From assembly GCA_014055465.1 (NCBI GenBank), contig WIAF01000007.1:186001-250000 (forward strand): DNA of 64,000 bases, read 5' to 3'. A program made the translations under genes and the position numbers. Below are positions 21,748 through 45,263 of this stretch, piece after piece (position 1 is the first letter of the stretch; every line of letters begins with the position of its first letter). The notes beneath the pieces were generated by a model. That model was not told the DNA's origin. It searched no databases and saw only the letters and a program-made list of their open reading frames with translations. The DNA comes from Nitrospira sp. CR1.1 (GTDB lineage Bacteria; Nitrospirota; Nitrospiria; Nitrospirales; Nitrospiraceae).

Positions 21748-24700
21748 ATGACTGAACACCACGCGAATCGCACAGCCAATCGCCTCGTTCGAGAAACCAG
21801 TCCCTATCTGTTGCAGCATGCGTACAATCCCGTGGATTGGTATCCCTGGGGGCCTGAAGCCTTGGCCCAGGCCGCGAAACTGAGGCGGCCGATCCTGCTC
21901 TCCATCGGCTACTCCTCCTGTCACTGGTGCCACGTGATGGAGCGGGAGTCGTTCGAAAATGCGGCGATTGCCGCGTTGATGAACCAACACTTCATCTGCG
22001 TGAAGGTCGATCGCGAAGAGCGGCCAGATCTGGATGAAATCTACATGCAGGCGACCTTGGCGCTGAATCGGAACCAAGGCGGCTGGCCGATGACCGTGTT
22101 TCTCACTCCGGACCAGAAGCCGTTTTTTGCCGGCACCTATTTCCCTCCCACGGATCGCTACGGACGGCCGGGCTTCCCTACGCTCCTGAAGAAGATCGCC
22201 GAGTACTGGGAAAAGGATCATGACGGCGTGGTTGCGCAGGCGGTGAATCTGACGGCGCGGCTTCAAGAGGGGGCTCACGCTCCTTCACCGACGACGGTCG
22301 GCGAAGCGGAACTCGATGTGGCCGTGACCCAGTTTGCGGAAGATTTTGACGCGAAACTTGGCGGGTTCGGCGGGGCGCCGAAGTTTCCACCGGCCACGGG
22401 TTTGTCGTTGTTGCTCCATTGTTATCATCGGACGAAGGACCCCCATACCCTCACTATGGTGCGGACCACGCTGGATGCCATGGCCGCCGGCGGAATCTAC
22501 GATCACATCGGCGGCGGGTTTGCCCGGTATTCCACGGATGAGCGCTGGCTGGTGCCGCATTTTGAGAAGATGCTCTATGACAATGCGTTACTGGCGCGCG
22601 TCTATGTGGAAGGCTACCAGGTCACGGCAGATGAGAATTACCGCCGTGTTGCTTGCGAGACGCTGGACTATATCCTCAAGGAAATGACCTCGCCTGAGGG
22701 AGGGTTTTACTCCGCCACCGATGCCGATTCCGAGGGCGTCGAGGGGAAGTTCTTCGTGTGGACGCCGGAAGACGTGCGAGCGGCGGTCGACCATGATGAA
22801 GATGCTCGCCGCATCTGCGCCTATTACGATGTGACGTCGGCCGGCAATTGGGAACACACGAATGTGCTCCATACCGCGAAGAGCGTCGAGGCCGTCGCCA
22901 AAGAATTGGGGATCAGCGCCGGCGAGTTGCGGGACACCATCACGCGCCTGAGACCTAAACTTTATGCAGCGCGCACGAAACGGATTGCGCCGGGGCTCGA
23001 TGATAAGGTCATTACGGCCTGGAACGGGATGATGATCAGCGCCATGGCGGAGGCCGGACGGGTGTTTGGCCTGCCGCGGTATCGCGAAGCCGCCGAACGG
23101 GCCTGCGATTTTCTCCTGAAGACGCTCTCCACATCGGATGGCCGGCTCTTGCGGACCTATCGTGCGGGTACGGCCCACTTGAATGCGTACCTGGAAGACT
23201 ATGCCTATTTCGCGGAAGGATTGATCGACACCTATGAAGCCGGGGGCGAGGAGCGTTATCTGCTCGCGTCCGTTCGCCTCGCCGAGCGGATGCTGGCGGA
23301 TTTTGCCGACAGCCAGCATGGCGGCTTCTTCACCACCGCCACCGGGCATGAGGCGTTGATCATGCGCAGCAGGGAAAGTCCTGACGGAGCCACACCGAGC
23401 GGGAATGCCGTGGCTGCCTCCGTACTCGGGCGACTGTCCTATCACTTTGCGCGGGAGGAGTTCCGGCAGGCCGCGACCGCGGCGGTTCGAGCGTACGGGC
23501 GTCAGATTGCGCGCTATCCACGAGCCTTTGCCAAGAGTCTGATCGTCGTCGATCTCCTCATGAACGGTCCCGTGGAGATCGCGCTGGTCGGTCGGCCCGG
23601 GGAGTCCGGAACGCAGTCCTTGCGCGCCGCCGTCAATGGAACCTATCTTCCGAACCGCGTGCTGGCCTACCGCGACCCAGGACAAACCGAAACACACCAT
23701 CCGCTGTTGCAGGGAAAGACTCTGGTCAACGGAAAGGCGGCGTTGTACGTGTGCCGGAATTTCGCCTGCGGCCGGCCGATCACCGATCCAGCGGAATTTC
23801 CCGCCCTGCTCGATCCTACACCACAGGCGTCACTGTCTCCCACGTCTGAGCAAAAGGTGCTACGCGGGATATTATGCCCTGGCCATGCAACCGTGCAGGG
23901 AACGGCGGCCTATGCTGCGCGAAACATCCACGACGGCAACGAGGCCCTGGCCAATGGATTCGGTCTCTTCGGTGCGACGGGCCTGACAGTCAATCGATTG
24001 GGTTTCGGAACCTATCGGGTCGGACAACGCGAGGGCGAGCATCGCGAGGCGTTACGCACCGCGCTTCGCCGGGGCTGCAATCTGATCGACACCTCGACGA
24101 ATTACATGGATGGTGAGAGCGAACAGCTGGTCGGGTCGGTCCTGCGGGACATGATGCGCGCAGGTGATCTGGCCCGTGAAAGCGTCATCGTGGTGTCGAA
24201 GATCGGCTATGTGCAGGGTCAGAATTTGACGCAGGCCCAGGCGCGGGAAAAATCGGGCAAACCCTACCCGGAGATGGTGAAGTACGGCGACGACATCTGG
24301 CACTGCATCCATCCGGATTTTCTGGCGGATCAATTGACGTTGTCCCTGGACCGGCTGGGGTTGGCTACGCTCGATGTGTGCCTGCTTCACAATCCGGAGT
24401 ATTTCCTCTCTCATGCGACGCGTCTTGGCGGGAATGAGCCGCGGGACCTGTCTGTCTTGCGCAAGGAATTCTATGCCCGACTGCAACGGGCATTCGAATA
24501 TTTTGAGACGCAAGTTCAGGCGGGCCGATTGTGTGGGTACGGCGTCTCGTCGAACACGGCCACCTCGCCTCCCGACGATCCGGGCGCCACCTCCCTCTCT
24601 TGGATGATCGATGCGGCCAAATCGGCGGCCACCACCGTCGGAACCGCGTCGCATCACTTTCACGTTCTCCAATGTCCGATGAATCTGTACGAGTCCGGCG

Positions 24701-25437
24701 CCGCGCTGATCAAAAACACCGGAACTCACCACGGCAGCACGCTGTTAGAGGAAGCGATGCGGGAACGGATCGCCGTGTTGGTCAATCGTCCATTAAATGC
24801 CATGCCTGTCCAGCGGGGCGGCGTTGTCCGGTTGGCGGATGTGCCGGTGCCGCCCCCGGAGGCCGAATGTGAGGCACAGCAGCGCAAGGTTGCAGCCTTA
24901 GAAGAAGAATATCGCAGCAGTCTTGCCCCCGCCGTGGCCCATAGCGGGCAAGGGATGCTTCCCGCCGACTTTTTCCGATGGGCCGATGAACTGACGCGCA
25001 TACGGGGTCAGGTGCAAGGATTGGAGCATTGGGAACAAATCGAACAACAAATGATCGCGCCGCATGTGAACCAGGTGCTTCGCGCGCTGGCGGAAGCCTT
25101 TACCGGCACTGTGGCTGAACAGTGGGAGTCCTGGCGGGATCGGTATGTGCCGGAACTGCTGGCCCTCTTGCGAACCCTGCATCGGGAGGCCTCCGAAAAA
25201 AGCCGCCTGCGTTCGGATGAACTCCATCGAACCCTCAATCCGCTCTTGCCGGATGAACGGCGCACGGCGACCTTGTCGCAGAAAGCGCTGTGGGTGCTTG
25301 CCAGCACGCCGGGTGTCACATCCGTGCTCAACGGTATGCGTACGCCCGCCTACGTGGAAGATGCGCTACACATTTTGCGGTGGCCACCGTTGCCGGATTG
25401 GAAACCGGTCTACGATCGTTGTGCCGGGAAGAAGTAA
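21748..25437 (+). CDS. Fusion: DUF255 (YyaL) thioredoxin-fold protein + aldo-keto reductase
   Basis: A 1229-residue two-part protein. Residues 1 to about 690 form a full YyaL/SPATA20-type protein: an N-terminal thioredoxin-like domain with the DUF255 hallmark [10 protein letters not shown] (Cys58, Cys61) and GGWPM, followed by an alpha/alpha-toroid glycosidase-like domain ([15 protein letters not shown] near residue 420). From about residue 748 a complete aldo-keto reductase begins ([12 protein letters not shown]) with its full catalytic tetrad: Asp781 and Tyr786 in DTSTNY, Lys818 in VSKIGY, His881 in LLHNP. The C-terminal 180 residues are helical, ending in the AKR-like GVTSVLNGM and YVEDAL. 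No stop or shift interrupts the frame. The joint role is unknown; DUF255 proteins themselves have no firmly known reaction. Possibly leaderless. Confidence 0.92.
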
Positions 25438-26290: not shown

Positions 26291-26674
26291 ATGGTGACGG
26301 TCAGCGATCTCATGACCAAGAAACTGGTGACGGTACCGGTTGGCACGTCGACGGCCGAGGCCGCCAAGGTGATGAACGAGTGTCATGTCGGTAGCGTGTT
26401 TATCGAGCAGAACAATCGTGTGGTGGGCATAGTCACCGAATCCGACATTGTTCGAAAGGTCGTCGGGGAAAACAAACCAGTACATTTTGTTCCGGTCGAA
26501 TCCATCATGAGTAGCCCTGTCATCAGTCTCGACGAGCGGCGATCGATTACGGAAGCCGCCGATTTGATGCAGTGCCATCACACCCGTCATTTGGGCGTGT
26601 TACAAAGCGGCGCGATCGTTGGTGTGCTGTCGGTGCGCGACCTGTTGCAACCGGTCGCGGTGGACGAGTTTTAG
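26291..26674 (+). CDS. CBS-domain pair protein
   Basis: 127 residues made almost wholly of two CBS domains (residues about 1-60 with VSDLMTKKLVTVP and GIVTESDIVRKV, and about 68-127 with VESIMSSPVISL and GVLSVRDLL). Such Bateman modules bind adenosine nucleotides and act as regulators. Here no partner domain is fused. A strong AAGGAGG precedes the ATG. Its upstream region carries an 11-bp-period Pho-box-like site, so it may belong to the phosphate regulon and sense energy charge during phosphate limitation; that is inference from position. Confidence 0.88.
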   Translation: MVTVSDLMTKKLVTVPVGTSTAEAAKVMNECHVGSVFIEQNNRVVGIVTESDIVRKVVGENKPVHFVPVESIMSSPVISLDERRSITEAADLMQCHHTRHLGVLQSGAIVGVLSVRDLLQPVAVDEF

Positions 26675-26737: not shown

Positions 26738-26765
26738 TTAACACACCCGTAACATGCCAGTGATG
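26738..26765 (+). promoter_or_regulatory. Pho-box-like operator and promoter of the first pstS
   Basis: Hexamers TTAACA (26738-26743), GTAACA (26749-26754) and GTGATG (26760-26765), each separated by 5 bp. A -10 element TAGGAT (26786-26791) follows the last hexamer after 20 bp. About 70 bases upstream of the pstS ATG. Confidence 0.75.
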
Positions 26766-26836
26766 TGCCAGCAATCATCGGTTTGTAGGATGAGTCGACT
26801 ACGGACGATACCACTACTCTAGCGGAGGAGAGGAAC

Positions 26837-27955
26837 ATGTTGAGTCAGGGACAGAGGCAGCGATGGGGACGGCGAGCAGTCGTTGTGGGCCTGGCGGGAG
26901 TCCTGGCTACGACTGGTTCGTTGGCCGTGTTTCCGACAGGAGTGGCGCGGGCCGAGAACGCGGGGCCTGCGGCGAGTCTGGCAACTGAAGAAGGATTGGT
27001 GCAATACAATCCGCAGGCTCAAGTGGCGGGAAGTCTTCGCGTTCAAGGCTCCGAGACAATGTCGCTCCTCATGAGTCGTCTTGCGGGTGAGTTCCAACGG
27101 CGCCAGCCAAATGTCTCGATCACTGTGAGCGGGGGCGGTTCAACGAAGGCCGTGAACGAGTTCGTCCAACCCCCGGCAAAGTTGAGCGGGAAAATCGCCC
27201 TCAAGGAAGAACGCCCGACCTATGTGTCTCTGGTGGCCTCCTCGCGGGAATTGCTTGATGCGGAAATCAAACAATTTGTTGCACAGCATGGATATGAACC
27301 GACCGGCATCCCTGTCGCGGTCGATGCTGTGGCGCTCTACGTCCACCGTGATAATCCCATTCAGGGCCTGACGCTCGACCAGGTCGATGCCATGTTTTCA
27401 ACCACGCACAATCGCGGATTAAAAACGAACCTCTCCCAATGGGGTGCTCTGGGCCTGCAAGACGGGTGGGAGAAGGCTCCCGTCAGACTGTACGGTCGGG
27501 ATCGGCGATCTGGGACGCGCGCCTTCTTTCAGGAACATTGTTTAGCCGGCGGTGAATTCGCGCCGACCCTTCGGGAGGAACCGGGAGCCGCGTCGGTCAT
27601 TCTTGGCCTGACGCGCGATCAATTGGGTATCGGCTACAGCGGATTAGGTCTGGAGACTTCCAATGTACGGATCGTTCCACTCGCGGAGAATCAAGGGATG
27701 CCCTTTGTCGCTCCCACGGCAGCAACCGTATCCGACCAAACGTACCCTCTTCGCCGGATGCTGTATCTGTATATCGATAAATCCCGGAAGGCTCCTCTTG
27801 CCCCTGCCGTGCAGGAATTTCTGACCTTTGTAACGAGTCGCGAAGGCCAGGAAGCCGTGATGAAGGCGGGGTTTTTCCCGCTTCCGATGAACCAGGTCAA
27901 GAAGAATTTCCTGGCTCTCGGCCTTGCCGGTCAGGATACTCCTCTCCCGAATTGA
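26837..27955 (+). CDS. pstS: Phosphate ABC transporter substrate-binding protein PstS (first copy)
   Basis: 372 residues. A long N-terminal signal peptide (QRWGRRAVVVGLAGVLATTGSLAVFPTGVARA, twin-arginine-like RR plus hydrophobic core, no lipobox) is followed by a PstS-like fold: RVQGSETMSLLMSRLAGEF near residue 67, SGGGSTKA, and the phosphate-pocket block YGRDRRSGTRAFFQEH. This copy is separate from the pstCAB operon and lies 9 kb upstream of it. Ser/Gly/Thr residues that bind phosphate in the family are present. A Pho-box-like site at 26738-26765 and a GGAGG before the ATG support its expression under phosphate limitation. Confidence 0.9.
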   Translation: MLSQGQRQRWGRRAVVVGLAGVLATTGSLAVFPTGVARAENAGPAASLATEEGLVQYNPQAQVAGSLRVQGSETMSLLMSRLAGEFQRRQPNVSITVSGGGSTKAVNEFVQPPAKLSGKIALKEERPTYVSLVASSRELLDAEIKQFVAQHGYEPTGIPVAVDAVALYVHRDNPIQGLTLDQVDAMFSTTHNRGLKTNLSQWGALGLQDGWEKAPVRLYGRDRRSGTRAFFQEHCLAGGEFAPTLREEPGAASVILGLTRDQLGIGYSGLGLETSNVRIVPLAENQGMPFVAPTAATVSDQTYPLRRMLYLYIDKSRKAPLAPAVQEFLTFVTSREGQEAVMKAGFFPLPMNQVKKNFLALGLAGQDTPLPN

Positions 27956-30385: not shown

Positions 30386-31930
30386 TTACATGAATCGTAT
30401 TTGCCACTGTACCAAGAAGGCATTCTGGGCGAAAGGGTCGCCCACGCCGCGTGTCGGATCGACGACGTTGTTGGGTCCGTTGCCGGAGTGATGGCGGAAC
30501 TCGTAGTTGACTTGGAGCTTGGACTGCACCTTGGGCGGGAAATTTTCGAAATAGTAGCTCAGGCCGATAATGGTTCTGGTGTACAGATCATTACTGATCC
30601 TGGTATTGGGATCGAATTGTTCGTACATAATGACCGGCTCAAAGTTTTCGAGCGGTCCGTCAGTAATCAAATACTTGGCCAGCACATACCAGGTGCGTCG
30701 TTGCACCCCTGGTGCGCCGGAGCCGCCGCAGATAAGTTGGACATCGCAGGCGCCGTTGGCCGGTCGTCCAACCGTGGTCTGGTTCGCTCCGTCGTGCCCC
30801 TGCCAGATTTCTCCCTGCACCATGAAGCCGGGCAGAATTTTAGAGGTATAACGAAAGTCCAATCCGTAGCGATCAAAAGCTCCTTTCCCGCGACCGTTGA
30901 TATTGGTATTGGCGTTGTTCGATTCGCCTTGAATGGTGGTGAAACTGATAAAGGACACGTCGCTTCCGAACAAGCGTATCCGCGAGTAGAAGCTTTTGGG
31001 GGCGTTTGATCCGGTCGCGTTGGCCTCATAATTGTTGTTGTTCATAATACCGACCACATACTCCAGCCGGTTGAACAGTTTGCCTCGCATATCGAGGAAA
31101 TAGTCACGCTCTTGGAGAAACTCGACTGTCCCGGCGGACCCGGTACGATTGCCGACTCCGGAGCCGACCGACGTGAGGTATGGCGAACTGATGATATCGC
31201 GCAACCCGCCGGAGGTTTCCGTGAAAATACCGAAGGGCATTCGAAAGATACCCATACGGAAATAATTCACATTCGGCGCCCATGACTGCACGGGTCGTAT
31301 GTCGAGATAGGCTTCCCGAAAGAAGGTCGACGAGGTCGGCACTCCACCGGTGGCGGCGCTGCCTCCCGTCGGCGTGTTGTTCAAGAGATTGATGCTTTGA
31401 AATTCCATTAATGTGTGCCATCGCGGCAGGGTATCGCTAATACGGCCCCAGAAGAGAATTTCCGACCGCCGGATGGAGAGGTTGTCCTGACTTCGCCCTT
31501 CGGGCACATGCGCATCCTGATGGGTGTATAACCATTGGAGCGCGTTCAGTCCGAAATTCACCTTGTCCTTGAGAATCGGCAGCAACTCCGCCTTCGACTT
31601 CCATTCCTCCAGGCCGTCGACTCGTTTGTCCCGCTCTCCGCTCTTGTATTCCTGTTCGGCCCGGATCTGAATCCACTCCTCTTTACTGATCGTGCCCTTC
31701 TGCATCAGGAGGTCTTCGATTGACGTGCCGCCGAGAGGAATATCCGTCGCGGGAGGCGGCGTTCCGCTTCCACCCGGAGAAGGGCCCATTGCCTGGGCGA
31801 CCACCGTGTGTGTCTGCGGGGCCACTGGGCCTAACCGTGAATCGCCGGCCCAGGACGCAGTCGCGCACAGACTGAACATTGCGGTTCCGATGAGGCCGCT
31901 GATAGATGCAACCAACGGACGTATTTCCAT
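30386..31930 (-). CDS. Phosphate-selective porin O/P-like protein
   Basis: 514 residues from the ATG at 31930 (AAGGAGG 9 bases upstream; an ATG at 31939 would touch the ribosome binding site). It has a signal peptide (MEIRPLVASISGLIGTAMFSLCATASWA), a periplasmic helical stretch (DKRVDGLEEWKSKAELL), and then alternating beta-strand sequence ending in an aromatic C-terminal strand (QWQIRFM), as in outer membrane porins. Several strands (RMGIFRMPFGIF, FNRLEYVVGIMNN) recall the OprO/OprP family. The Pho-box-like site at 32002-32029 and the neighbouring phosphate genes support phosphate or polyphosphate uptake. Confidence 0.75.
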   Translation of the reverse strand: MEIRPLVASISGLIGTAMFSLCATASWAGDSRLGPVAPQTHTVVAQAMGPSPGGSGTPPPATDIPLGGTSIEDLLMQKGTISKEEWIQIRAEQEYKSGERDKRVDGLEEWKSKAELLPILKDKVNFGLNALQWLYTHQDAHVPEGRSQDNLSIRRSEILFWGRISDTLPRWHTLMEFQSINLLNNTPTGGSAATGGVPTSSTFFREAYLDIRPVQSWAPNVNYFRMGIFRMPFGIFTETSGGLRDIISSPYLTSVGSGVGNRTGSAGTVEFLQERDYFLDMRGKLFNRLEYVVGIMNNNNYEANATGSNAPKSFYSRIRLFGSDVSFISFTTIQGESNNANTNINGRGKGAFDRYGLDFRYTSKILPGFMVQGEIWQGHDGANQTTVGRPANGACDVQLICGGSGAPGVQRRTWYVLAKYLITDGPLENFEPVIMYEQFDPNTRISNDLYTRTIIGLSYYFENFPPKVQSKLQVNYEFRHHSGNGPNNVVDPTRGVGDPFAQNAFLVQWQIRFM

Positions 31931-32001
31931 TACGGACATCCTCCTTGTGTCTGGTGATTTCGTGAACGCGGGGGGATTGTAGTCAAGAGGCGTCACACTC
32001 A

Positions 32002-32029
32002 CGTTCACACTGTGTTACCGATGTGTAAA
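32002..32029 (-). promoter_or_regulatory. Pho-box-like operator and promoter of the porin gene
   Basis: On the minus strand: TTTACA (32029-32024), GTAACA (32018-32013), TGAACG (32007-32002), all with 5-bp gaps. A -10 element TACAAT (31981-31976) follows after 20 bp. The porin ATG is at 31930. Confidence 0.8.
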
Positions 32030-32090: not shown

Positions 32091-32801
32091 TCAGTCTGAC
32101 GACAGTTTGTAGCCAACGCCCCTGACCGTGACAATCCATTGCGGGACCGACGGCTTGTATTCCAGTTTCTGGCGGAGCGCGTGGATATGCACGTCCAATG
32201 CGTGTTCTTCAAGCGCGTAGTCTTCTCCCCAGACAAGATTGAGCAGCGCCTGGCGCGTCAGCACGCGTCCCGGGTTTTGCAAGAGCACACGGAGAATCTG
32301 GAACTCCTTCGGCGTCAGTTGAATCGATTTTCCCTCGACCCTGACCTCGTGTCGATCGAGATTCATGGACAGCGCACGGACTCGAAATTCCCTGGCAGGC
32401 GCGGATTGAAATTCCTGTCTCCGGAGGAGCGCCTTGATGATGGCCAGCCATTCGCGATGACGGTACGAATCGACCACGATATCGAATCCTGCGGCAAGGT
32501 CCTCTACGGTGTCTTCTTCCGTGCACGCTTCTCCCCGTGGTTGAAGCGCAATCATGGGGATGTGCTGGAACGCATGGCTTTGCCGTAATACAGAAATGAT
32601 CTTGTGCCGCCGGTCAATCAGCGCCAGTTTGAAGGCGGCTCGAGGAGCGAGGGACAGGGCGATCTCAGCCGTCGGCGCAAGGGACACCTGATACCCGTTC
32701 GGTCGCAGCACATGCAGGACGACCGCTGCGAAGTTCTCGTCCTTGGTCACGAACAGCACCGCGATGCCGTGAGGATGTCCCGATTCCGTCGCCAGCTGCA
32801 T
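32091..32801 (-). CDS. PhoB-like OmpR-family regulator with a degenerate receiver domain
   Basis: 236 residues. The C-terminal winged helix (about residues 140-234) is of the OmpR/PhoB type and ends in the classical VTVRGVGYKL. The N-terminal receiver keeps acidic residues (Asp21, Glu22) and a possible phospho-acceptor Asp63, but the conserved Thr is replaced by Gln87 and the conserved Lys by Asp111 (VVDSYRH where active receivers have VVKPF). Control by a classical phosphorelay may therefore be altered. It has a Pho-box-like site just upstream, placed to autoregulate it, and lies between the porin and psiE. No histidine kinase gene is adjacent. The -10 of that promoter is 6 bases before the ATG, so the mRNA may be leaderless. 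Confidence 0.85.
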   Translation of the reverse strand: MQLATESGHPHGIAVLFVTKDENFAAVVLHVLRPNGYQVSLAPTAEIALSLAPRAAFKLALIDRRHKIISVLRQSHAFQHIPMIALQPRGEACTEEDTVEDLAAGFDIVVDSYRHREWLAIIKALLRRQEFQSAPAREFRVRALSMNLDRHEVRVEGKSIQLTPKEFQILRVLLQNPGRVLTRQALLNLVWGEDYALEEHALDVHIHALRQKLEYKPSVPQWIVTVRGVGYKLSSD

Positions 32802-32833
32802 GACCCGATGCTACCGGCGCTCCGTTGCAGGCT

Positions 32834-32861
32834 TGTATCCCGATTGTTACGCCGGTGTAAA
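32834..32861 (-). promoter_or_regulatory. Pho-box-like operator and promoter of the PhoB-like regulator gene
   Basis: On the minus strand: TTTACA (32861-32856), GTAACA (32850-32845), GATACA (32839-32834), 11-bp period. A -10 element TAGCAT (32813-32808) follows after 20 bp; the ATG at 32801 is then almost at the transcription start. Confidence 0.75.
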
Positions 32862-32912: not shown

Positions 32913-32940
32913 CGTAACGTAGTTGTAATGCCGTTGTGAA
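32913..32940 (-). promoter_or_regulatory. Second Pho-box-like site in the regulator-psiE intergenic region
   Basis: On the minus strand: TTCACA (32940-32935), ATTACA (32929-32924), GTTACG (32918-32913), 11-bp period. No -10 lies 20 bp downstream in this orientation. On the plus strand TAGATT occurs 21 bases past the site, so it may serve psiE in inverted orientation, or strengthen binding at the regulator promoter. Confidence 0.55.
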
Positions 32941-33063
32941 TGCCATGGAACAATAGCGAGATAGATTTGCGCTGGAGGTCGTGGTTCACAGGATTCGGGA
33001 AGGATCCGCGGGCAAACGGCTCAGCCATGACTCCTATCATTCGCAAGGAGGCGTATACAGATT

Positions 33064-33573
33064 ATGACGTTCACCAATTTTCCGGTTCGAGTGCCACGTG
33101 TCGCAGACGTCGCAGATCGCATCATTGAAACGGATCTCACCGACCTCTGGATGAAAGGAATTAAAGGCGTACTGAGTCTCCTGATTCTGACGATCCTTCT
33201 CGCCCTGACGGGAGGCGTTATCAAGACGTTTCTAGATATCCGATTGTTACTTGATGCGCCGGTTGAGGTCGGGCTTCGGCAGATCATTGTGGATACGCTG
33301 ATTCTCCTCGCGGTGGTCGAAGTCTTCAAGACGACGCTGACCTATTTCTCAGAAGGACGCGTGAAGGTGACCTTTATCGTCGATACGATTCTGGTCGTCA
33401 TGCTGACGGAGATCATTTCGCTGTGGTTCAAGGAAGCCGATCAGACCAAGCTCCTGTCGCTAGGAGCCATTGTCTTGGCATTGGGAGCGGTACGGATTGT
33501 TGCCGTGCGTTGCTCGCCCGCACAAGGAGAAGCCAGCGGGAAATGCGCGGGCTCTTGCCGGGAGGGAATCTAG
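33064..33573 (+). CDS. psiE: PsiE-like phosphate-starvation-inducible membrane protein
   Basis: 169 residues with about four hydrophobic segments (LSLLILTILLALTGGVI, IIVDTLILLAVVEVFKTTL, VKVTFIVDTILVVMLTEII, LLSLGAIVLALGAVRIVAV). The block with VVEVFKTTLTYFSEGRVKVTFIVDT resembles the PsiE family, which is induced by phosphate starvation in E. coli. The context (next to the PhoB-like regulator and Pho-box-like sites) supports this. An AAGGAGG lies 12 bases before the ATG, a longer gap than usual. Function of the family is not known. The C-terminus is Cys/Ser rich. Confidence 0.78.
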   Translation: MTFTNFPVRVPRVADVADRIIETDLTDLWMKGIKGVLSLLILTILLALTGGVIKTFLDIRLLLDAPVEVGLRQIIVDTLILLAVVEVFKTTLTYFSEGRVKVTFIVDTILVVMLTEIISLWFKEADQTKLLSLGAIVLALGAVRIVAVRCSPAQGEASGKCAGSCREGI

Positions 33574-34014: not shown

Positions 34015-34707
34015 TCAGAGGCGCGAGCTCAATCGATACCGAAATCCCGGCAGTATTTCGAGAACCCCCGCCCCACTGTTTTCAAGCTTTCGACGAAGCC
34101 CGCGTATGTCGCGATCCAACTCCTGAAGCGTTATTTCCGGCCACTCCCCGAACAGAGGAGCCAGTAATGCGTCCGCCTTCAACAGGGTGTGTTCGCGACC
34201 GAGCAGGCAGCGGAGCAGCACCGTCTCTTTCCGTGACAGTGTGAGTTCTCGTTTCCCCAGCAGGACGACAAAATACGGACCCTGCGCTGTCACCGTCGCA
34301 TTTGGAACGGCGCTGACCTCCGCGGATGAATCTTCGCGTCGGCGAAGAACGGCTCGTACGCGGGAGGCAACCTCTCTTGGGCTAAACGGCTTCACCACAT
34401 AATCGTCGGCGCCCATATCCAGGCCGGCGATCCGTTCGGCTTCACCTCCGACCGCCGTCAGCATGATGATCGGGATGCCTCGCGTTGCAGGGCTTTGGCG
34501 CACCATCCGGCAGATCTCATGACCACTGAGTCCGGGCAACATGAGGTCGAGCAGAATGAGCGCTGGTCGGCGGCCTTGAATGTCCCGCCACCCGCTATGG
34601 CCATCGGTGGACAGCCACGTATGAAATCCGGCATGGCGAAGTGCGCGATCGAGCAGTTCGGCGTGAAGAGGTTCGTCTTCAATGATGTGCACGGTTGGAA
34701 TGGTCAT
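34015..34707 (-). CDS. OmpR-like response regulator (orphan)
   Basis: 230 residues from the ATG at 34707; ATG 34719 and TTG 34749 are possible too, and no clear ribosome binding site decides. The receiver is complete: IIEDEP acidic pair, phospho-acceptor Asp in LILLDLMLPG, Thr in IIMLTA, Lys in DDYVVKPFSP. The C-terminal part is a winged-helix-like domain (SRKETVLLRCLLGRE, DIRGLRRKLE, ILPGFRYRL). No kinase is adjacent. It converges with the small winged-helix gene; its C-terminal domain resembles that of the regulator at 44471-45193, so the two may be paralogues. Confidence 0.88.
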   Translation of the reverse strand: MTIPTVHIIEDEPLHAELLDRALRHAGFHTWLSTDGHSGWRDIQGRRPALILLDLMLPGLSGHEICRMVRQSPATRGIPIIMLTAVGGEAERIAGLDMGADDYVVKPFSPREVASRVRAVLRRREDSSAEVSAVPNATVTAQGPYFVVLLGKRELTLSRKETVLLRCLLGREHTLLKADALLAPLFGEWPEITLQELDRDIRGLRRKLENSGAGVLEILPGFRYRLSSRL

Positions 34708-34820
34708 ACGGTGTGACATGCTATGGAGCAATTGTTTCAGGTTCCTCAACGCTTGTTGTTGGTGCTGTTAATTTCACCATGAGATCGGCGCTCGTTGCTG
34801 AGAAGGCGCGGCAAGGAAAG

Positions 34821-34848
34821 TTAACATGCTGTTTACACTGGGTTGATG
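34821..34848 (+). promoter_or_regulatory. Pho-box-like operator and promoter of the pst operon
   Basis: TTAACA (34821-34826), TTTACA (34832-34837), TTGATG (34843-34848), each with a 5-bp gap. A -10 element TATGCT (34869-34874) follows after 20 bp. It precedes the second pstS by about 75 bases. Confidence 0.8.
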
Positions 34849-34921
34849 GCGTGGAAATGCCACAATCCTATGCTGAGCAGTGCAACGGTACAGGGCCGCT
34901 TTAACCGGAGGAATTGTGTCT

Positions 34922-35932
34922 ATGGTCATCTCACGTCAGATTTGCTTGAGTCTCACACTGGCCATGTTGGGGTTATTGATGACGGCGTGTCTGGTCAGCG
35001 CCGCACCGGGTGATGCTTCCGCGAGCGAAACCATCATCGTTGATGCGGAAATCAAGTCCTATGCGAAGGTCAGCGGCGTGTCTGGGACGATCAACAGCAT
35101 CGGATCGGATACCCTCAACAATCTCATGACGTTGTGGGCGGAGGGATTTCGGAAGCAATACCCCAATGTCAAAATTCAAGTGGAAGGGAAGGGATCGAGT
35201 ACGGCCCCGCCCGCGTTGATCGAAAATACGGCTCAACTGGGTCCCATGTCACGCACGATGAAATCCAGTGAGATTGACGCCTTCGAAGGCAAGTTCGGGT
35301 ATCCCCCCACCGCGTACCCCGTCGCGGTAGATGCGCTGGCGTTGTTCGTGAATAAAGACAATCCGGTTGCAGGGGTCACCATTGCAGAAGTGGACGCCTT
35401 GTTTTCGAAGTCGCGACGCCAGGGGCATACCACAGACTTGACCCGTTGGGGCCAGCTCGGTCATCGCGGCGATTGGGTCAATGCACCGGTGAGTCTCTAC
35501 GGTCGCAACTCGGCATCGGGCACCTACGGATTTTTCAAAGAACACGCGTTGAAGAACGGCGACTTTAAGGATCAGGTGAAGGAGCAGCCGGGATCGGCCT
35601 CGGTGGTGCAAGGCATCAGCGAGGATCGGTACGGCATCGGCTATAGCGGAATCGGATACAGCACATCGGGGGTGAGAATGGTTCCGCTGGCGGCAAAGCC
35701 GGGACAGCCGTTTATTGAACCGACCCATGCGAATACGAAGAATGGAACCTATCCGCTCTGGCGGTATTTGTATATCTATGTGAACCAGGCTCCTGGCAAA
35801 CCTCTCTCCCCCATCGTGAAAGAATTTCTTGCGTACGTCTACAGCAAGGAGGGGCAGTCCGACGTGCTCAGGGATGGATACTTTCCCGTCCCCGGGGCAC
35901 TGGCAGAGAAACAACTCGCCAAGATTCACTAA
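34922..35932 (+). CDS. pstS: Phosphate ABC transporter substrate-binding protein PstS (second copy)
   Basis: 336 residues from the ATG at 34922 (GGAGG 10 bases upstream; GTG at 34916 is also possible). The signal peptide ends with LLMTACLVSA, which contains a possible lipobox (MTAC), so this copy may be lipid-anchored unlike the first. The mature part has IGSDTLNNLMTLWAEGF, KGSSTAPPA, and the phosphate-binding stretch YGRNSASGTYGFFKEH, and the GIGYSGIGY block, similar to the first pstS and to the PstS-like family. Its stop codon overlaps the pstC start (TAATG), so it is the first gene of the pstSCAB-phoU-ppx operon. Confidence 0.92.
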   Translation: MVISRQICLSLTLAMLGLLMTACLVSAAPGDASASETIIVDAEIKSYAKVSGVSGTINSIGSDTLNNLMTLWAEGFRKQYPNVKIQVEGKGSSTAPPALIENTAQLGPMSRTMKSSEIDAFEGKFGYPPTAYPVAVDALALFVNKDNPVAGVTIAEVDALFSKSRRQGHTTDLTRWGQLGHRGDWVNAPVSLYGRNSASGTYGFFKEHALKNGDFKDQVKEQPGSASVVQGISEDRYGIGYSGIGYSTSGVRMVPLAAKPGQPFIEPTHANTKNGTYPLWRYLYIYVNQAPGKPLSPIVKEFLAYVYSKEGQSDVLRDGYFPVPGALAEKQLAKIH

Positions 35933-38160
35933 TGAAGACGAACCCCCTAAGATATTTTTTTGCGCCCGTACGTGTGCGGTCGCTGATCGACCGGGTTGCC
36001 CGCGCTGTCATTACGGTGGGTGGGTTGGCCACCATTGTCAGTATTCTCGGCATGTTCTTTTTTCTGTTTCGCGAAGTCACTCCGCTCTTCACGGCACCGA
36101 GCGCGAAGTTAAGCCAACGCCTGAATGTGCCTGCCTTGCTGGCAGACGAAGGCCCCGCGCAGGTGGCCGTGGATGAACATCGGGAAATCGCGCAGATTTT
36201 CACGTCCGGTGCGATTCAATTTTTTGACCTGGCTTCGGGCCGGCCCATCTTGGTGGAGACACCGGCGCAGCTGACGTCAAGGCAGGTGACGGCCATGGCC
36301 TCGGGAGGCGGCCACACTTCGCGTCTTGCCGTGGGGACGGCTGACGGCGAACTCATAGTGTTAAAGATCGGCACCATGACGGAATTTTCCGAGCAGGGCG
36401 AACGACGGAAACGTCCGCAGATTCACGCCGGTCCACCCATTCCCGTGGCGAAGAGCCCGATTGTTCGCCTGGCCTATCGATCCAACGACCAGGGCAGTCT
36501 CCTTGCCCTTGCTACGAAGGCGGGGCGGCTGTTTCTCGCGAGGATTGCTCCGGATGATCCGGGGGGAGCCGACATGGTTATCACCGAGCTGCCTCAGCCG
36601 CCCAGCGCCGTCACGTCTCTGGCGCTGGACGCATCGCATGAACATCTGTTTGTCGGCACCGCCGACGGGCACGTTGTTCATGTCGGACTGTCAGAGGCCC
36701 AGCCGCCTGAGGTGAGGGGTTCCTACGTGGTCGCTGCGCCCACGACGGCAGTCACCATGTTAGGATTTCTCAGTGGTGATCGCAGTCTGGTGGTCATGGC
36801 GGCTGACGGGGTCGTGTCAACGTGGGGGCTCGTCCGGCGCGCCGACGCGCCATCGGGCTGGAAGCTCACGCAAATGCATACGTTCCGCTCTCATCCCTCG
36901 CCGGTGACCGCATTCGCCCCGTCGCAACGAGTTAAAGGATTTATCACCGGAGATGCGAAGGGAAATGTGTTCCTGCACCACGCCACATCTTCTCAAACAT
37001 TGTTGCGGCTGACCGTCGGCGAGTTTCCCATTCGTGCCGTCTCATTTGCGCCGAAGGGAGATGGGGTGATCGCTCTGGATGAAGCCGGGCAACTGTCGCT
37101 CTATCAGGTCCAGAACCCCTATCCGGAAGTCACATGGGAAACGCTCTTCGGCAAGGTCTGGTATGAGGGGTACGATCAGCCGGCGTATGTCTGGCAATCG
37201 TCTTCTGGGTCGGATGATGTGGAACCGAAACTGGGTTTGCTGCCGCTGGCGTTCGGAACTCTTAAGGGAACAATCTATGCCCTGTTCCTTGCCGTCCCGA
37301 TTGCGATCCTTGCCGCGATCTGCACCTCCCAGTTCATGCATCACGATCTTCGCGCAAAAGTTAAACCGATTATTGAAGTCATGGCGGCCTTGCCGACCGT
37401 GGTACTTGGCTTCCTGGCCGGACTCTGGTTAGCGCCTCTGCTGGAGCGCATGCTCCCGGCTCTCGCTGGCATGGTGCTGGTGTTGCCCATGCTTGTCATC
37501 ACGGCCTCCTTTTTCTGGCACCTCTGTCCCTTGTCGGTTAAACGGCGCCTCTCCCCGGGCAACGAAGCATTGATGTTGATGCCCATTCTGGCGCTCGGGA
37601 TCGGCGGGTGCCTCTGGGCTCATTCCTTTTTTGAAGTTTGGTGGTTCGACGGAAACATCAAAGCCTGGCTTACGAATCGGCTCGGCATCCAATATGATCA
37701 GCGCAACGCCCTGGTCGTCGGCATCGTGATGGGGTTTGCTATCGTGCCGGTGATCTACAGTATTGCCGAGGAGGCGCTCTCCAACGTGCCGAGATCCCAC
37801 ATCGCCGGATCTCTTGCGCTGGGCGCCACCCGTTGGCAAACCGTATGGCATCTGGTGTTGTTATCCGCCAGCCCCGGGATATTTTCCGCTGTGATGATCG
37901 GGTTCGGCCGCGCAATCGGAGAAACCATGATTGTGCTGATGGCCACGGGGAATACCCCGATTCTGGATTGGAATTGGGCAAACGGCTTCCGCACCCTGTC
38001 GGCCAATATTGCCGTCGAAATTCCGGAGGCGCCGCATGGGGGAAGTCTATACCGGGTGCTGTTCTTGGCCGCGCTCCTGTTGTTCATTGTGACGTTCGTC
38101 ATCAATTCATTGGCTGAACTCGTTCGCCAGCGGCTCCGGGATAAATATAGTCATGGGTAA
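35932..38160 (+). CDS. pstC: Phosphate ABC transporter permease PstC with long N-terminal domain
   Basis: 742 residues. One membrane segment (about 25-48, AVITVGGLATIVSILGMFFFLF) is followed by about 390 residues that look like repeated beta-propeller blades (VGTADGELIVLKIG, VGTADGHVVHVGL, GDAKGNVFLHHAT), predicted to be periplasmic. The permease domain starts near residue 442 (TLKGTIYALFLAVPIAILAAI) and includes the ABC coupling motif region SLALGATRWQTVWHLVLLSA near residue 625 and GFGRAIGETM. The long form also occurs in pseudomonads. It overlaps pstA by 8 bases. Confidence 0.93.
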   Translation: MKTNPLRYFFAPVRVRSLIDRVARAVITVGGLATIVSILGMFFFLFREVTPLFTAPSAKLSQRLNVPALLADEGPAQVAVDEHREIAQIFTSGAIQFFDLASGRPILVETPAQLTSRQVTAMASGGGHTSRLAVGTADGELIVLKIGTMTEFSEQGERRKRPQIHAGPPIPVAKSPIVRLAYRSNDQGSLLALATKAGRLFLARIAPDDPGGADMVITELPQPPSAVTSLALDASHEHLFVGTADGHVVHVGLSEAQPPEVRGSYVVAAPTTAVTMLGFLSGDRSLVVMAADGVVSTWGLVRRADAPSGWKLTQMHTFRSHPSPVTAFAPSQRVKGFITGDAKGNVFLHHATSSQTLLRLTVGEFPIRAVSFAPKGDGVIALDEAGQLSLYQVQNPYPEVTWETLFGKVWYEGYDQPAYVWQSSSGSDDVEPKLGLLPLAFGTLKGTIYALFLAVPIAILAAICTSQFMHHDLRAKVKPIIEVMAALPTVVLGFLAGLWLAPLLERMLPALAGMVLVLPMLVITASFFWHLCPLSVKRRLSPGNEALMLMPILALGIGGCLWAHSFFEVWWFDGNIKAWLTNRLGIQYDQRNALVVGIVMGFAIVPVIYSIAEEALSNVPRSHIAGSLALGATRWQTVWHLVLLSASPGIFSAVMIGFGRAIGETMIVLMATGNTPILDWNWANGFRTLSANIAVEIPEAPHGGSLYRVLFLAALLLFIVTFVINSLAELVRQRLRDKYSHG

Positions 38161-39802
38161 ACACTCCACGCGCATGAAAAATTTTTGGCGAGGCGGAGAG
38201 CTCTTCGTCTGGATGACGGCGTCAGGCGTGGCGATCAGTTTGCTGATGGTAGCCGGGATGCTTGCCCTGATCATGTTCAATGGCCTGGGGCAGTTCTGGC
38301 CAAGGACGCTGCAGCAGGTGACGCTGAACACGCAGGAGACGCTGATCGGACAGCTCGTGGGCGAAGAGACAATCCCTCACTCTGGCACGACTGATGCCCG
38401 ATCGGGACAACGCCGCTTTCGGTATCGCGTCGGCAATCGGGATCAATTCGGCTCCGAGTATCGGTGGATCAACGAAGCCGACATCGTGTCGACGTCTTCT
38501 CCAGACGATCTGACGTTCGTGGAGCGGCGCGAATGGGGCCCTGCCTACGGCCGTATCGGCCTGGAGGAAGAAGGCAGCACCGCAACGACTCATGACCAAA
38601 GCACCTGGTCTACCATCGTCAGGCTTGTGGATCGAGCAAACCAGCTGCGCCAGCAAATCGAACATCTCGAGCGCGAGGACATCGGATCAATCAACTATCG
38701 TATCGAAAAGGCCAGGCTTGCGCGGCAGGCTCTAGTGTTGAAAGGTGGAGTTGCTGCAACCACTGCCGAAGCCGACCGGCGTCTCGTCGATGAGATTGCC
38801 GGGCTTGAGCGCGAATACCTCTCCAAGACCCAAGCGTTGGAGCGCTTGCACAAAGAGGCAAGCCAGGACGTGGTGTTCCTCACCCTCTCCACCGGGCGAT
38901 CGGTGCGTCTGCCGCTCGATCAGATCGTGGCCGTCAGCCGGCCGAACGCGATGAATTGGGTTGAGAAGATGATGGCCTATGTCCGTAATCTGTGGCTCTT
39001 TGTTTCAGGCGAACCTCGAGAGGCGAACACGGAGGGCGGGATCTTTCCGGCCATCTTCGGCACGGTCCTGATGGTGTTCTTGATGACGTTGGCGGTCATG
39101 CCCTTCGGTGTCATGGCGGCGGTGTATTTACGGGAGTATGCGAAGCAAGGACCGCTCGTCAGGCTGGTCAGGATTGCGGTGAACAACCTGGCCGGGGTGC
39201 CCTCGATTGTGTTCGGCGTGTTTGGTTTGGCGTTTTTCGTCTATGCGCTCGGAGGAACCATCGACCAGCTTCTGTTTCCTGAATCCTTGCCGAATCCCAC
39301 GTTCGGCACGGGCGGGATTCTCTGGGCCTCCCTGACCCTCGCGCTGCTCACGGTTCCTGTGGTGATCGTCGCAACCGAGGAAGGCCTGTCAGCGGTGCCG
39401 CGCGATTTTCGCGAGGGGTCGGTGGGCCTGGGCGCTACGAAATTCGAGACGATCCGGCATGTCGTTCTACCCTGCGCCTTGCCGGGAATTCTGACGGGAT
39501 TGATTCTCGCCATGGCCAGAGCCGCAGGCGAAGTGGCGCCGCTGATGCTGACGGGCGTCGTCAAGTTAGCCCCGGCGCTTCCACTGGACGAGTATCTTCC
39601 CTTTCTGCATCTCGAACGAAAGTTCATGCATTTGGGTTTTCATATTTACGACGTGGGATTTCAGTCGCCGAACGTCGAGGCGGCAAAGCCGATGGTGTAT
39701 ATGACTACCTTCATTTTGATTCTGGTAGTGGTGCTGTTGAATCTGGCCGCGGTGATGTTGCGCAATCGCTTACGCAAACGCTTCGCGGCGTCGGCGGTGT
39801 GA
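38153..39802 (+). CDS. pstA: Phosphate ABC transporter permease PstA with large insert
   Basis: 549 residues. A first membrane segment (about 20-45) precedes a large extracytoplasmic region of about 250 residues with a coiled-coil part (NQLRQQIEHLEREDIGSINY, ... REYLSKTQALERLHKEA). The permease domain runs from about residue 295 to the end, with TLALLTVPVVIVATEEGLSAV and the coupling helix SVGLGATKFETIRHVVLP. Its start lies within the last codons of pstC. Compared with short E. coli PstA the extra region is unusual but matches the long PstC, suggesting the two extra domains work together. Confidence 0.93.
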   Translation: MGKHSTRMKNFWRGGELFVWMTASGVAISLLMVAGMLALIMFNGLGQFWPRTLQQVTLNTQETLIGQLVGEETIPHSGTTDARSGQRRFRYRVGNRDQFGSEYRWINEADIVSTSSPDDLTFVERREWGPAYGRIGLEEEGSTATTHDQSTWSTIVRLVDRANQLRQQIEHLEREDIGSINYRIEKARLARQALVLKGGVAATTAEADRRLVDEIAGLEREYLSKTQALERLHKEASQDVVFLTLSTGRSVRLPLDQIVAVSRPNAMNWVEKMMAYVRNLWLFVSGEPREANTEGGIFPAIFGTVLMVFLMTLAVMPFGVMAAVYLREYAKQGPLVRLVRIAVNNLAGVPSIVFGVFGLAFFVYALGGTIDQLLFPESLPNPTFGTGGILWASLTLALLTVPVVIVATEEGLSAVPRDFREGSVGLGATKFETIRHVVLPCALPGILTGLILAMARAAGEVAPLMLTGVVKLAPALPLDEYLPFLHLERKFMHLGFHIYDVGFQSPNVEAAKPMVYMTTFILILVVVLLNLAAVMLRNRLRKRFAASAV

Positions 39803-43639: not shown

Positions 43640-44503
43640 ATGGCAGGCGCGCGACGATCTATTCATACAGGAGCGCAGTCCCCTACTCAAGGGTTGGTCG
43701 ACATGGCCGCGTCCAGTCAGGCCACGGTCCTCAGGTTGTTGCGGCAGGTGATTGCCGGCGACGAGCATGCAGGCACGATCCACGCCATTCGTACGCATTG
43801 CCGAAGACTTCAAGCATTACTGGAATTGTATGGGGAGGCGAGACGCGCCGGCGCAATGGCGGATTGTGTCCGAAGTTTAAGCAAGCTCCGAGCGCTCCAG
43901 GTGTTCCGTCACTATCTGGTCACCCGCGATGCTCCGCAGCAGGATCTGGCCTTGGTGGATGACCGGCTCATCAAAAGGATCAGGAAGCTGAACCGCACAA
44001 AGATCTATCACCGGATCGAGCAAGTTGTCTGGAAGCAGGGGCTTCCCAGGATCACCTCCCCTGCGTATTCCTTGACCGATCGGCTCGACGGGTTGCGTCA
44101 TGAGCACGAATGCCTGCTCAAACGGCTCATCGCAGCCGCATCGGACAACCCCCGGCGAAAGCGCCTTCATGCCTTGCGCCTGGCCCTGAAGACGATCCGG
44201 TATCAGACGGAATGGTTGCCGGGGCGAACGGCAGCAAAACAGGACTTGCTCTCCCAACTCAAACGGGTTCAGGCCCTAATGGGAAAGTATGAGGAACTGG
44301 CTGATTTTCATCGCTGGGGCAAGAAGCTGAGTCCGCCGGTGCAGGCACGCATTAGAAAGGACTGGAGGCGAGCGAGGAAACGGGCCCGGCTTGTTCCCGG
44401 GGAGATGTCGTGGTTATTGGATGCATTGGCAGCCGGGCATGTGTGGACTGCGGCGGGTCATCCCGATGCGTTATTGAACCGGAGGTCCGCCGGAACTCTC
44501 TGA
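43640..44503 (+). CDS. CHAD domain protein (polyphosphate binding)
   Basis: 287 residues. It is all alpha-helical with conserved histidines and basic residues: TIHAIRTHCRRLQALLELYG in the first half and RLHALRLALKTIRYQTEWL in the second, the double CHAD repeat. CHAD proteins bind inorganic polyphosphate and occur at polyphosphate granules. Its place 0.7 kb from ppx and the pst operon supports this. No CYTH domain is fused. Its 3' end overlaps the convergent response regulator gene by 33 bases. Confidence 0.85.
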   Translation: MAGARRSIHTGAQSPTQGLVDMAASSQATVLRLLRQVIAGDEHAGTIHAIRTHCRRLQALLELYGEARRAGAMADCVRSLSKLRALQVFRHYLVTRDAPQQDLALVDDRLIKRIRKLNRTKIYHRIEQVVWKQGLPRITSPAYSLTDRLDGLRHEHECLLKRLIAAASDNPRRKRLHALRLALKTIRYQTEWLPGRTAAKQDLLSQLKRVQALMGKYEELADFHRWGKKLSPPVQARIRKDWRRARKRARLVPGEMSWLLDALAAGHVWTAAGHPDALLNRRSAGTL

Positions 44504-45193
44504 GGTTGATGTCGCCAGACGAAAACCGCCCGGCACGGTTTTAATGCAAGCCGCAGGCGGGGCTTCGTCCGTCAACTTCCGATTCAGCTGTTCTATGCAC
44601 CGGTCGAGCTCCCTGTCGTGCATGAGGCTCTCGTCTTCCCACAGCAAGGATTTGAGTTCCTCGCGAGGAACGACGCTCCCGGCCGTACTCGCCAACCGGC
44701 GCAGCGCTTTCCACTCCTGCGCGGAGAGCGTCAGGTGTTTTCCCCGGTACACCGCGACATACAGGTTTTCAGTGAGGGCGAGATCCTCGGCGAGTTCCTC
44801 GTCTTGCGCCTGGCTCTGCCGGCAACGGCGGAGCAGCGCCCGCACGCGAGCCAGGAGTTCCGCGCCTGAATAGGGCTTGACGATAACATCGTCAGCTCCC
44901 GCATCTAAGGCTTCCGCTCGGCGCTCCTCGGAGGAAAATCCCGACATGACGATAATCGGGATGTGTTTGGTGGAGGGGTCCTGCCGCAAGCGCTTGCACA
45001 TCTCCCTGCCGGTCAGTCCGGGAAGATTGTCATCGGCCATGATCAAGGATGGTTTGATGCGCCAGACATCCTGCATGCCGGCCGGCCCGTCGAACGCGAC
45101 ATTGGTGCGGAACGACGCTTGCCGCAGAATCTGATCCAACAACTTGGCCTGGCTCTGGTCGTCCTCGACAATTTCAATGATTTCTAAGGCCAT
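44471..45193 (-). CDS. OmpR-like response regulator (orphan)
   Basis: 240 residues from the ATG at 45193 (GGGGAG upstream); an ATG at 45211 would add six residues. The receiver domain is complete: EIVEDDQ acidic pair, acceptor Asp in LIMADDNLPG, Ser in IIVMSG, Lys in DDVIVKPYSG. The C-terminal domain (about 135-225) is winged-helix-like (LSAQEWKALRRLAS, RCIEQLNRKL, TVPGGFRLA) and close to the one at 34015-34707. No kinase is adjacent. A 34-bp dyad with a perfect core palindrome lies about 70 bases upstream. It is downstream of the ATPase gene on the same strand. Confidence 0.88.
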   Translation of the reverse strand: MALEIIEIVEDDQSQAKLLDQILRQASFRTNVAFDGPAGMQDVWRIKPSLIMADDNLPGLTGREMCKRLRQDPSTKHIPIIVMSGFSSEERRAEALDAGADDVIVKPYSGAELLARVRALLRRCRQSQAQDEELAEDLALTENLYVAVYRGKHLTLSAQEWKALRRLASTAGSVVPREELKSLLWEDESLMHDRELDRCIEQLNRKLTDEAPPAACIKTVPGGFRLATSTSESSGGPPVQ

Positions 45194-45263
45194 GAAGACA
45201 CTCCCCTGCACTCCTCATCGGTCGGCGCAGGGGTAAACTTGAGGGCGATGTGATCGAGCCGAC

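Follow-up and report, generated by a model that had tools for sequence, protein, structure and literature searches.

RR1, a gene on the minus strand (32091..32801) in the pst cluster of Nitrospira sp. CR1.1, within the 64,000-nucleotide stretch of DNA analysed here (the window), is by its sequence a pseudo-receiver paralogue of PhoB without a kinase neighbour. On balance, we favour the interpretation that it would be induced by the Pho system and, independently of phosphorylation, exert feedback on the local Pho promoters, most likely as an activator. The gene is conserved throughout its family and is preceded by a Pho-type promoter of its own.

With regard to domain structure, the reading frame is real and encodes 236 amino acids, which Pfam, NCBIfam, a PDB sequence search and an AlphaFold model resolve into a pseudo-receiver (residues 14-128) and a PhoB-type winged helix (residues 157-233). 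The latter, already recognized in a first-pass annotation of this DNA, matches Trans_reg_C (PF00486) at 1.7e-29, with 102.1 bits against a cut-off of 26.2, and ends in VTVRGVGYKL. The N-terminal half yielded no Response_reg (PF00072) match at 1e-3 in Pfam, and the PhoB equivalog TIGR02154 of NCBIfam scored the protein at 125.5 bits, below the curated cut-off of 296.2. RegX3 (2oqr) was the best solved relative by sequence (E 7.7e-32). AlphaFold2 predicted a complete receiver fold (pLDDT 86.8, mostly near 90) with which the fold of a second model agreed, and a fold search retrieved whole OmpR-family regulators, including the atypical CosR, HP1043 (2hqr) and RitR. A predicted receiver fold without key catalytic residues assigns RR1 to the pseudo-receivers or atypical response regulators, a class usually defined from domains that software calls receivers, a call that Pfam does not make for RR1.

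In an alignment with the PhoB of E. coli, RR1 has no acidic Mg2+ pocket, E9/D10 of PhoB being replaced by Thr19/Lys20, and Gln87 stands at the position of Thr83, as the first-pass annotation had stated. Asp63, at the phospho-Asp position, is the sole catalytic residue left of the canonical receiver set (acidic pair, Asp, Thr, Lys). Comparison with the fetched PhoB of the same genome gave an identical result. An hhalign alignment with that protein verified that Lys105 is missing; the earlier placement of Asp111 in its stead corresponds to the ungapped reading, the other being that the Lys falls within an adjacent one-residue deletion. As judged from these alignments, the loss of the pocket, which had gone unmentioned, is a stronger ground to doubt phosphorylation than Gln87 and Asp111. 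Receivers that are altered at the pocket, the Thr or the Lys do not necessarily lose all phosphorylation (PMC12632262).

RR1 relatives from Nitrospira genomes, 40-84% identical, were aligned together with the window copy (n=47), and essentially all members belong to the Nitrospiraceae. Inspection of the Asp63, Gln87 and Asp111 columns, proposed earlier as a check, revealed that the pocket, Thr and Lys have been lost family-wide, a few members carrying Ser at the Thr position, and that 40/47 sequences keep Asp63, whereas six of the remaining seven carry Glu and one has Gly. The suggestion that RR1 is controlled in another way than by classical phosphorylation thus gains support. A weak PF00072 match was obtained for 20 of the 47 members (best 2.2e-4). 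Mean pairwise identity rises from 41% in the receiver to 72% for the winged helix as a whole and 94% for its recognition helix. Both halves are under purifying selection, because dN/dS among close relatives is 0.10-0.29 for the receiver and, where calculable, 0.05-0.11 for the winged helix; these values and the conservation rule out a decaying pseudogene. In a tree built with a quick method and containing some long branches, the 47 members formed one clade (SH-aLRT 84), canonical PhoB of Nitrospira formed another (100), and a wider branch comprising RR1 and pseudo-receiver relatives received a value of 99. L065, a record labelled Nitrosospira, is a metagenome-assembled genome that groups inside Nitrospira. 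As far as seen, the lineage is confined to the Nitrospiraceae.

The earlier statement that RR1 has no kinase partner holds for the 64-kb window, in which no PhoR-like kinase was found, but not for the genome. PhoR is encoded at C2:332728-333759 (TIGR02966, E 6.5e-94, 315 bits, just under the curated cut-off of 334), in a position immediately after an intact phoB, with a PiT-type phosphate permease, named by eye, adjoining. The genome's own PhoB is encoded at L001:14-730, and intact PhoB proteins (74-98% identity) were present in 22/22 other RR1-bearing genomes searched. At the 48 RR1 loci searched, some of them with short flanks, no PhoR-like kinase was detected. As PhoR lies beside a separate, intact PhoB, RR1 is an extra paralogue and not the PhoB of the organism. 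The phoR gene that was to be looked for elsewhere therefore exists; a PhoR that phosphorylates RR1 would speak against the proposed uncoupling, but its presence alone does not, because PhoR has an intact partner of its own and the RR1 pocket lacks the Mg2+ ligands.

The Pho-box-like site that had been noted upstream of RR1 proved to be real. Where chance would give 0.08 copies of the pattern TGTWAN6TGTWA, the window contains four, and all four sites lie in promoters of pho genes. The same pattern occurs six times in 4.44 Mb, and the E. coli-type TGTCAN6TGTCA, of which there is none in the window, seven times in the genome. Genome-wide counts of the box say little, since reversed-pattern controls are as high or higher. 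On the sense strand, the four promoters read TWACAN6TWACA-N31-TANNNT, with the -10 hexamer exactly 31 nt downstream of the box, an architecture common to five promoters of the pst cluster including that of RR1, the psiE box being weaker. The RR1 box (TTACACCGGCGTAACA in sense orientation; 32845..32860, minus strand) is conserved in L047-L050 and is followed after 31 nt by the hexamer TAGCAT (32808..32813, minus strand). The gene for a porin of the phosphate-selective Porin_O_P family (30386..31930, minus strand, start ATG 31930; Pfam 1.4e-05) has its box at 32013..32028 (minus strand) and its -10 element TACAAT at 31976-31981. For the second pstS-like gene (26837-27955), box and -10 element TAGGAT lie at 26739..26754 (plus strand) and 26786-26791, respectively. 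Those of pstS (34922..35932, plus strand; TIGR02136 1.2e-75), the first gene of pstSCAB-phoU-ppx, are located at 34822..34837 (plus strand) and 34869-34874 (TATGCT). The start of this gene was reassigned: the longest frame begins with GTG 34880, which the -10 element precedes by a mere 5 nt, and ATG 34922 with GGAGG upstream is likelier. The weaker box (GTAACG..GTAATG; 32914..32930, plus strand) precedes a psiE-like gene divergent from RR1 (33064..33573, plus strand; Pfam PsiE 1.9e-12), again 31 nt from its -10 element TAGATT (32962-32967).

All 18 exact boxes in the window and four close relatives obey the 31-nt spacing, as do 36 of 69 boxes in other RR1-bearing loci, the background rate of TANNNT being 0.0048 per position. 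Weaker repeats at 11-bp steps between box and -10 element were seen by eye. PHO boxes are tandem 11-nt repeats (PMC4415409), and four window promoters, as well as psiE in weaker form, have direct repeats of 11 bp followed by a -10 element; judged by this pattern, the layout is that of a Pho-type operator. The looser pattern GTAAC-N32-TANNNT matched 16 sites, of which the window holds three, against control counts of 54 and 41, and no further regulon members can be named for that reason.

The RR1 mRNA had been suspected to be leaderless, and at the sequence level this prediction is well supported. In the window and four close relatives, 6 nt separate the end of the -10 hexamer (TAGCAT; one relative has TACCAT) from the ATG, and no Shine-Dalgarno sequence was found near the RR1 start in these five genomes. 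At the other promoters of the cluster the leader measures some 40 nt or more, with GGAGG-like sites, and some more distant RR1 genes also possess a leader and GGAGG (L056).

Several further genes of the window deserve mention. The regulator encoded at 34015-34749 (minus strand) is the opposite of RR1 in that its receiver residues are intact (E, D, E, D, T, K) and its winged helix is divergent (Trans_reg_C 1.9e-7); its counterpart in L051 has a Pho box and a -10 element ending 6 nt before the ATG. Relatives of a third OmpR-type regulator (44471-45211, minus strand) lie close to a Pho box in genomes where RR1 was not found (L140, L142, L149). PstC (742 aa) and PstA (549 aa), encoded at 35932-39802 (plus strand), are far longer than usual, and the PstC model matches the C-terminal part of the pstC product, which places the extra sequence N-terminally. 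By eye, a 1229-aa frame (21748-25437, plus strand) seems to fuse a thioredoxin-like (DUF255-type) part to an aldo-keto reductase-like part.

RR1 cannot be the exclusive reader of the boxes: the same TWACAN6TWACA boxes, some with the same spacing, occur upstream of pstS-like genes and in the vicinity of porin or RR3 genes in genomes of the family where RR1 was not found, the full 31-nt architecture being present in five of 14 cases, and most of the examined genomes of this kind encode canonical PhoB-PhoR. The box is thus a general Pho element of the family, with PhoB as the likeliest common reader. Binding of RR1 to it is not assured, because residues with which PhoB contacts DNA are changed, Arg193, Thr194, Arg200 and Arg201 being His, Ala, His and Ala/Ser in RR1 (recognition helix H-A-x-D-V-H-x-H-[AS] versus R-T-x-D-V-H-x-R-R in PhoB). 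In PhoB, thymines are contacted by Thr194 and a guanine by Arg201 (PMC3973317). The preference of RR1 among these boxes may therefore differ from that of PhoB.

Under the interpretation favoured here, RR1 would be made when the Pho system is on, by way of the box in its own promoter and a leaderless mRNA, would fold and pair through a retained receiver face without Asp phosphorylation, and would exert feedback by binding the 11-bp direct repeats in the local Pho promoters, its activity being set by its amount and not by phosphorylation. Mapping by hhalign onto the genome's PhoB indicates that RR1 has retained a part of the PhoB dimer face (D107, E117, K123, R128); two further positions of this face, D101 and R115 of PhoB, are both changed in the window copy, which counts against this explanation. 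The family has kept the Trp and Gly of the PhoB-type transactivation loop along with an acidic pair (W191, G192, E198, E199); the role of this loop is described for PhoB (PMC3973317). Retention of these residues favours activation over competition, for a pure competitor would not need them. That RR1 competes with phosphorylated PhoB for Pho boxes and damps the response by negative feedback consequently appears unlikely, even though the boxes are common to genomes where RR1 was not found, RR1 would not easily be switched off by dephosphorylation and its own promoter is a Pho promoter.

A different mode of control is suggested by three cysteines near the dead active site of most relatives (C93-x4-C98-x12-C111), situated in beta4-alpha4 and, in the case of Cys111, at the end of beta5 on the site of the old Lys. 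All three are present in 29/47 sequences, and each occurs in 33-35 of 41 distant relatives. Pseudo-receivers with a single redox-active Cys are known from RitR, whose structures are among the fold matches of RR1, and HP1021 (PMC12632262); RitR carries its Cys in the linker and HP1021 in the alpha1-beta2 loop, whereas three are typical of RR1 relatives, two of which are missing from the window copy. The family may possess a redox or metal switch, yet this cannot fully account for the window copy, because Cys93 alone is kept in that lineage. Joint loss of the cysteines on the tree is suggestive but fell short of significance (3 of 5 pairs, p 0.25), and co-loss was rejected as proof of joint function, the events being too few. 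A role of RR1 as redox or metal sensor across most of the family, of which the window copy would be a reduced form, is in our view improbable.

The nearest sister group of RR1 (L202-L215) consists of longer open frames with the same pseudo-receiver and winged helix. Most of them start with a signal-peptide-like sequence followed by an exported region, a PEP-CTERM-like anchor (VPLPAGIILFGSGLCGIVGIVIRR), the pseudo-receiver, the PhoB-type winged helix and a basic tail, most clearly so in L210:7996-9582 (plus strand), L212:8064-9707 (plus strand) and L213:8059-9702 (minus strand). Matches to PEP-CTERM (PF07589) stay under the Pfam cut-off (best 19.4 bits versus 20.7). By eye, L212 lies within an array of PEP-CTERM-like genes, one of which is related to its N-terminal part. 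From its sequences, this clade looks like a group of membrane-anchored transcription factors. A far-reaching scenario, doubtful at present, would have PhoB paralogues specific to the Nitrospiraceae give up phosphorylation in favour of a redox or metal switch of three cysteines over phosphate uptake, later reduced in the window lineage, and the sister lineage join this pseudo-receiver and winged helix to an exported anchor of PEP-CTERM type, so that membrane-bound transcription factors arose.

Still less probable is a switch by a partner protein, be it the CBS protein, PhoU, or PhoB or the adjacent regulator (34015-34749) in a heterodimer. The CBS-domain gene (26291..26674, plus strand; Pfam and locus survey) lies within 10 kb of 42/48 RR1 orthologues, RR1 retains some residues of the PhoB dimer face, and BldM-WhiI provides a heterodimer precedent (PMC4125116). 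Against it, the CBS gene is 5.4 kb away in the window, and PhoU is found near 10/48 loci. Of the two controllers named in the first-pass annotation, CBS has backing from genomic context. Least probable of all is weak phosphorylation of Asp63 by PhoR or acetyl phosphate, which we consider very improbable in spite of the frequent retention of Asp63 and the presence of PhoR in the genome, given that the Mg2+ pocket, Thr and Lys are all gone, that seven members have Glu or Gly at this position and that PhoR has its own PhoB.

Compared with known systems, the proposed feedback activator RR1 resembles PhoB of E. coli and of its own genome in the winged helix, in the Trp/Gly of the transactivation loop and in the 11-bp direct-repeat boxes at phosphate genes, and differs from it in the lack of acidic pocket, Thr and Lys. 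It shares a degenerate receiver with ChxR, HP1043 and CosR, atypical members of the OmpR family. Known representatives of this kind work without phosphorylation (PMC3960148, PMC8345958). Proteins such as ChxR and HP1043 form the 'free' subclass, defined by dimerisation and DNA binding in the unphosphorylated state, to which RR1 may belong. These proteins stem from Chlamydia, Helicobacter and Campylobacter, whereas RR1 resides in a pst cluster and its genome encodes a separate, intact PhoB-PhoR pair. Pseudo-receivers are common; a survey of bacterial receivers put their share at about 6% (PMC12632262). The kind of protein that RR1 represents is therefore known; new are its place in the pst cluster alongside intact PhoB and the cysteine triad of its family. 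Among open-access papers on Nitrospira with PhoB, we found no study of a Pho regulon or of an RR1-type system. The on/off switching of pseudo-receivers is an open problem (PMC12632262), and RR1 offers a conserved pseudo-receiver in a known nutrient pathway with sharply defined promoters, which makes both signal and effect directly testable. For nitrite-oxidising Nitrospira, the analysis also provides a usable definition of Pho promoters.
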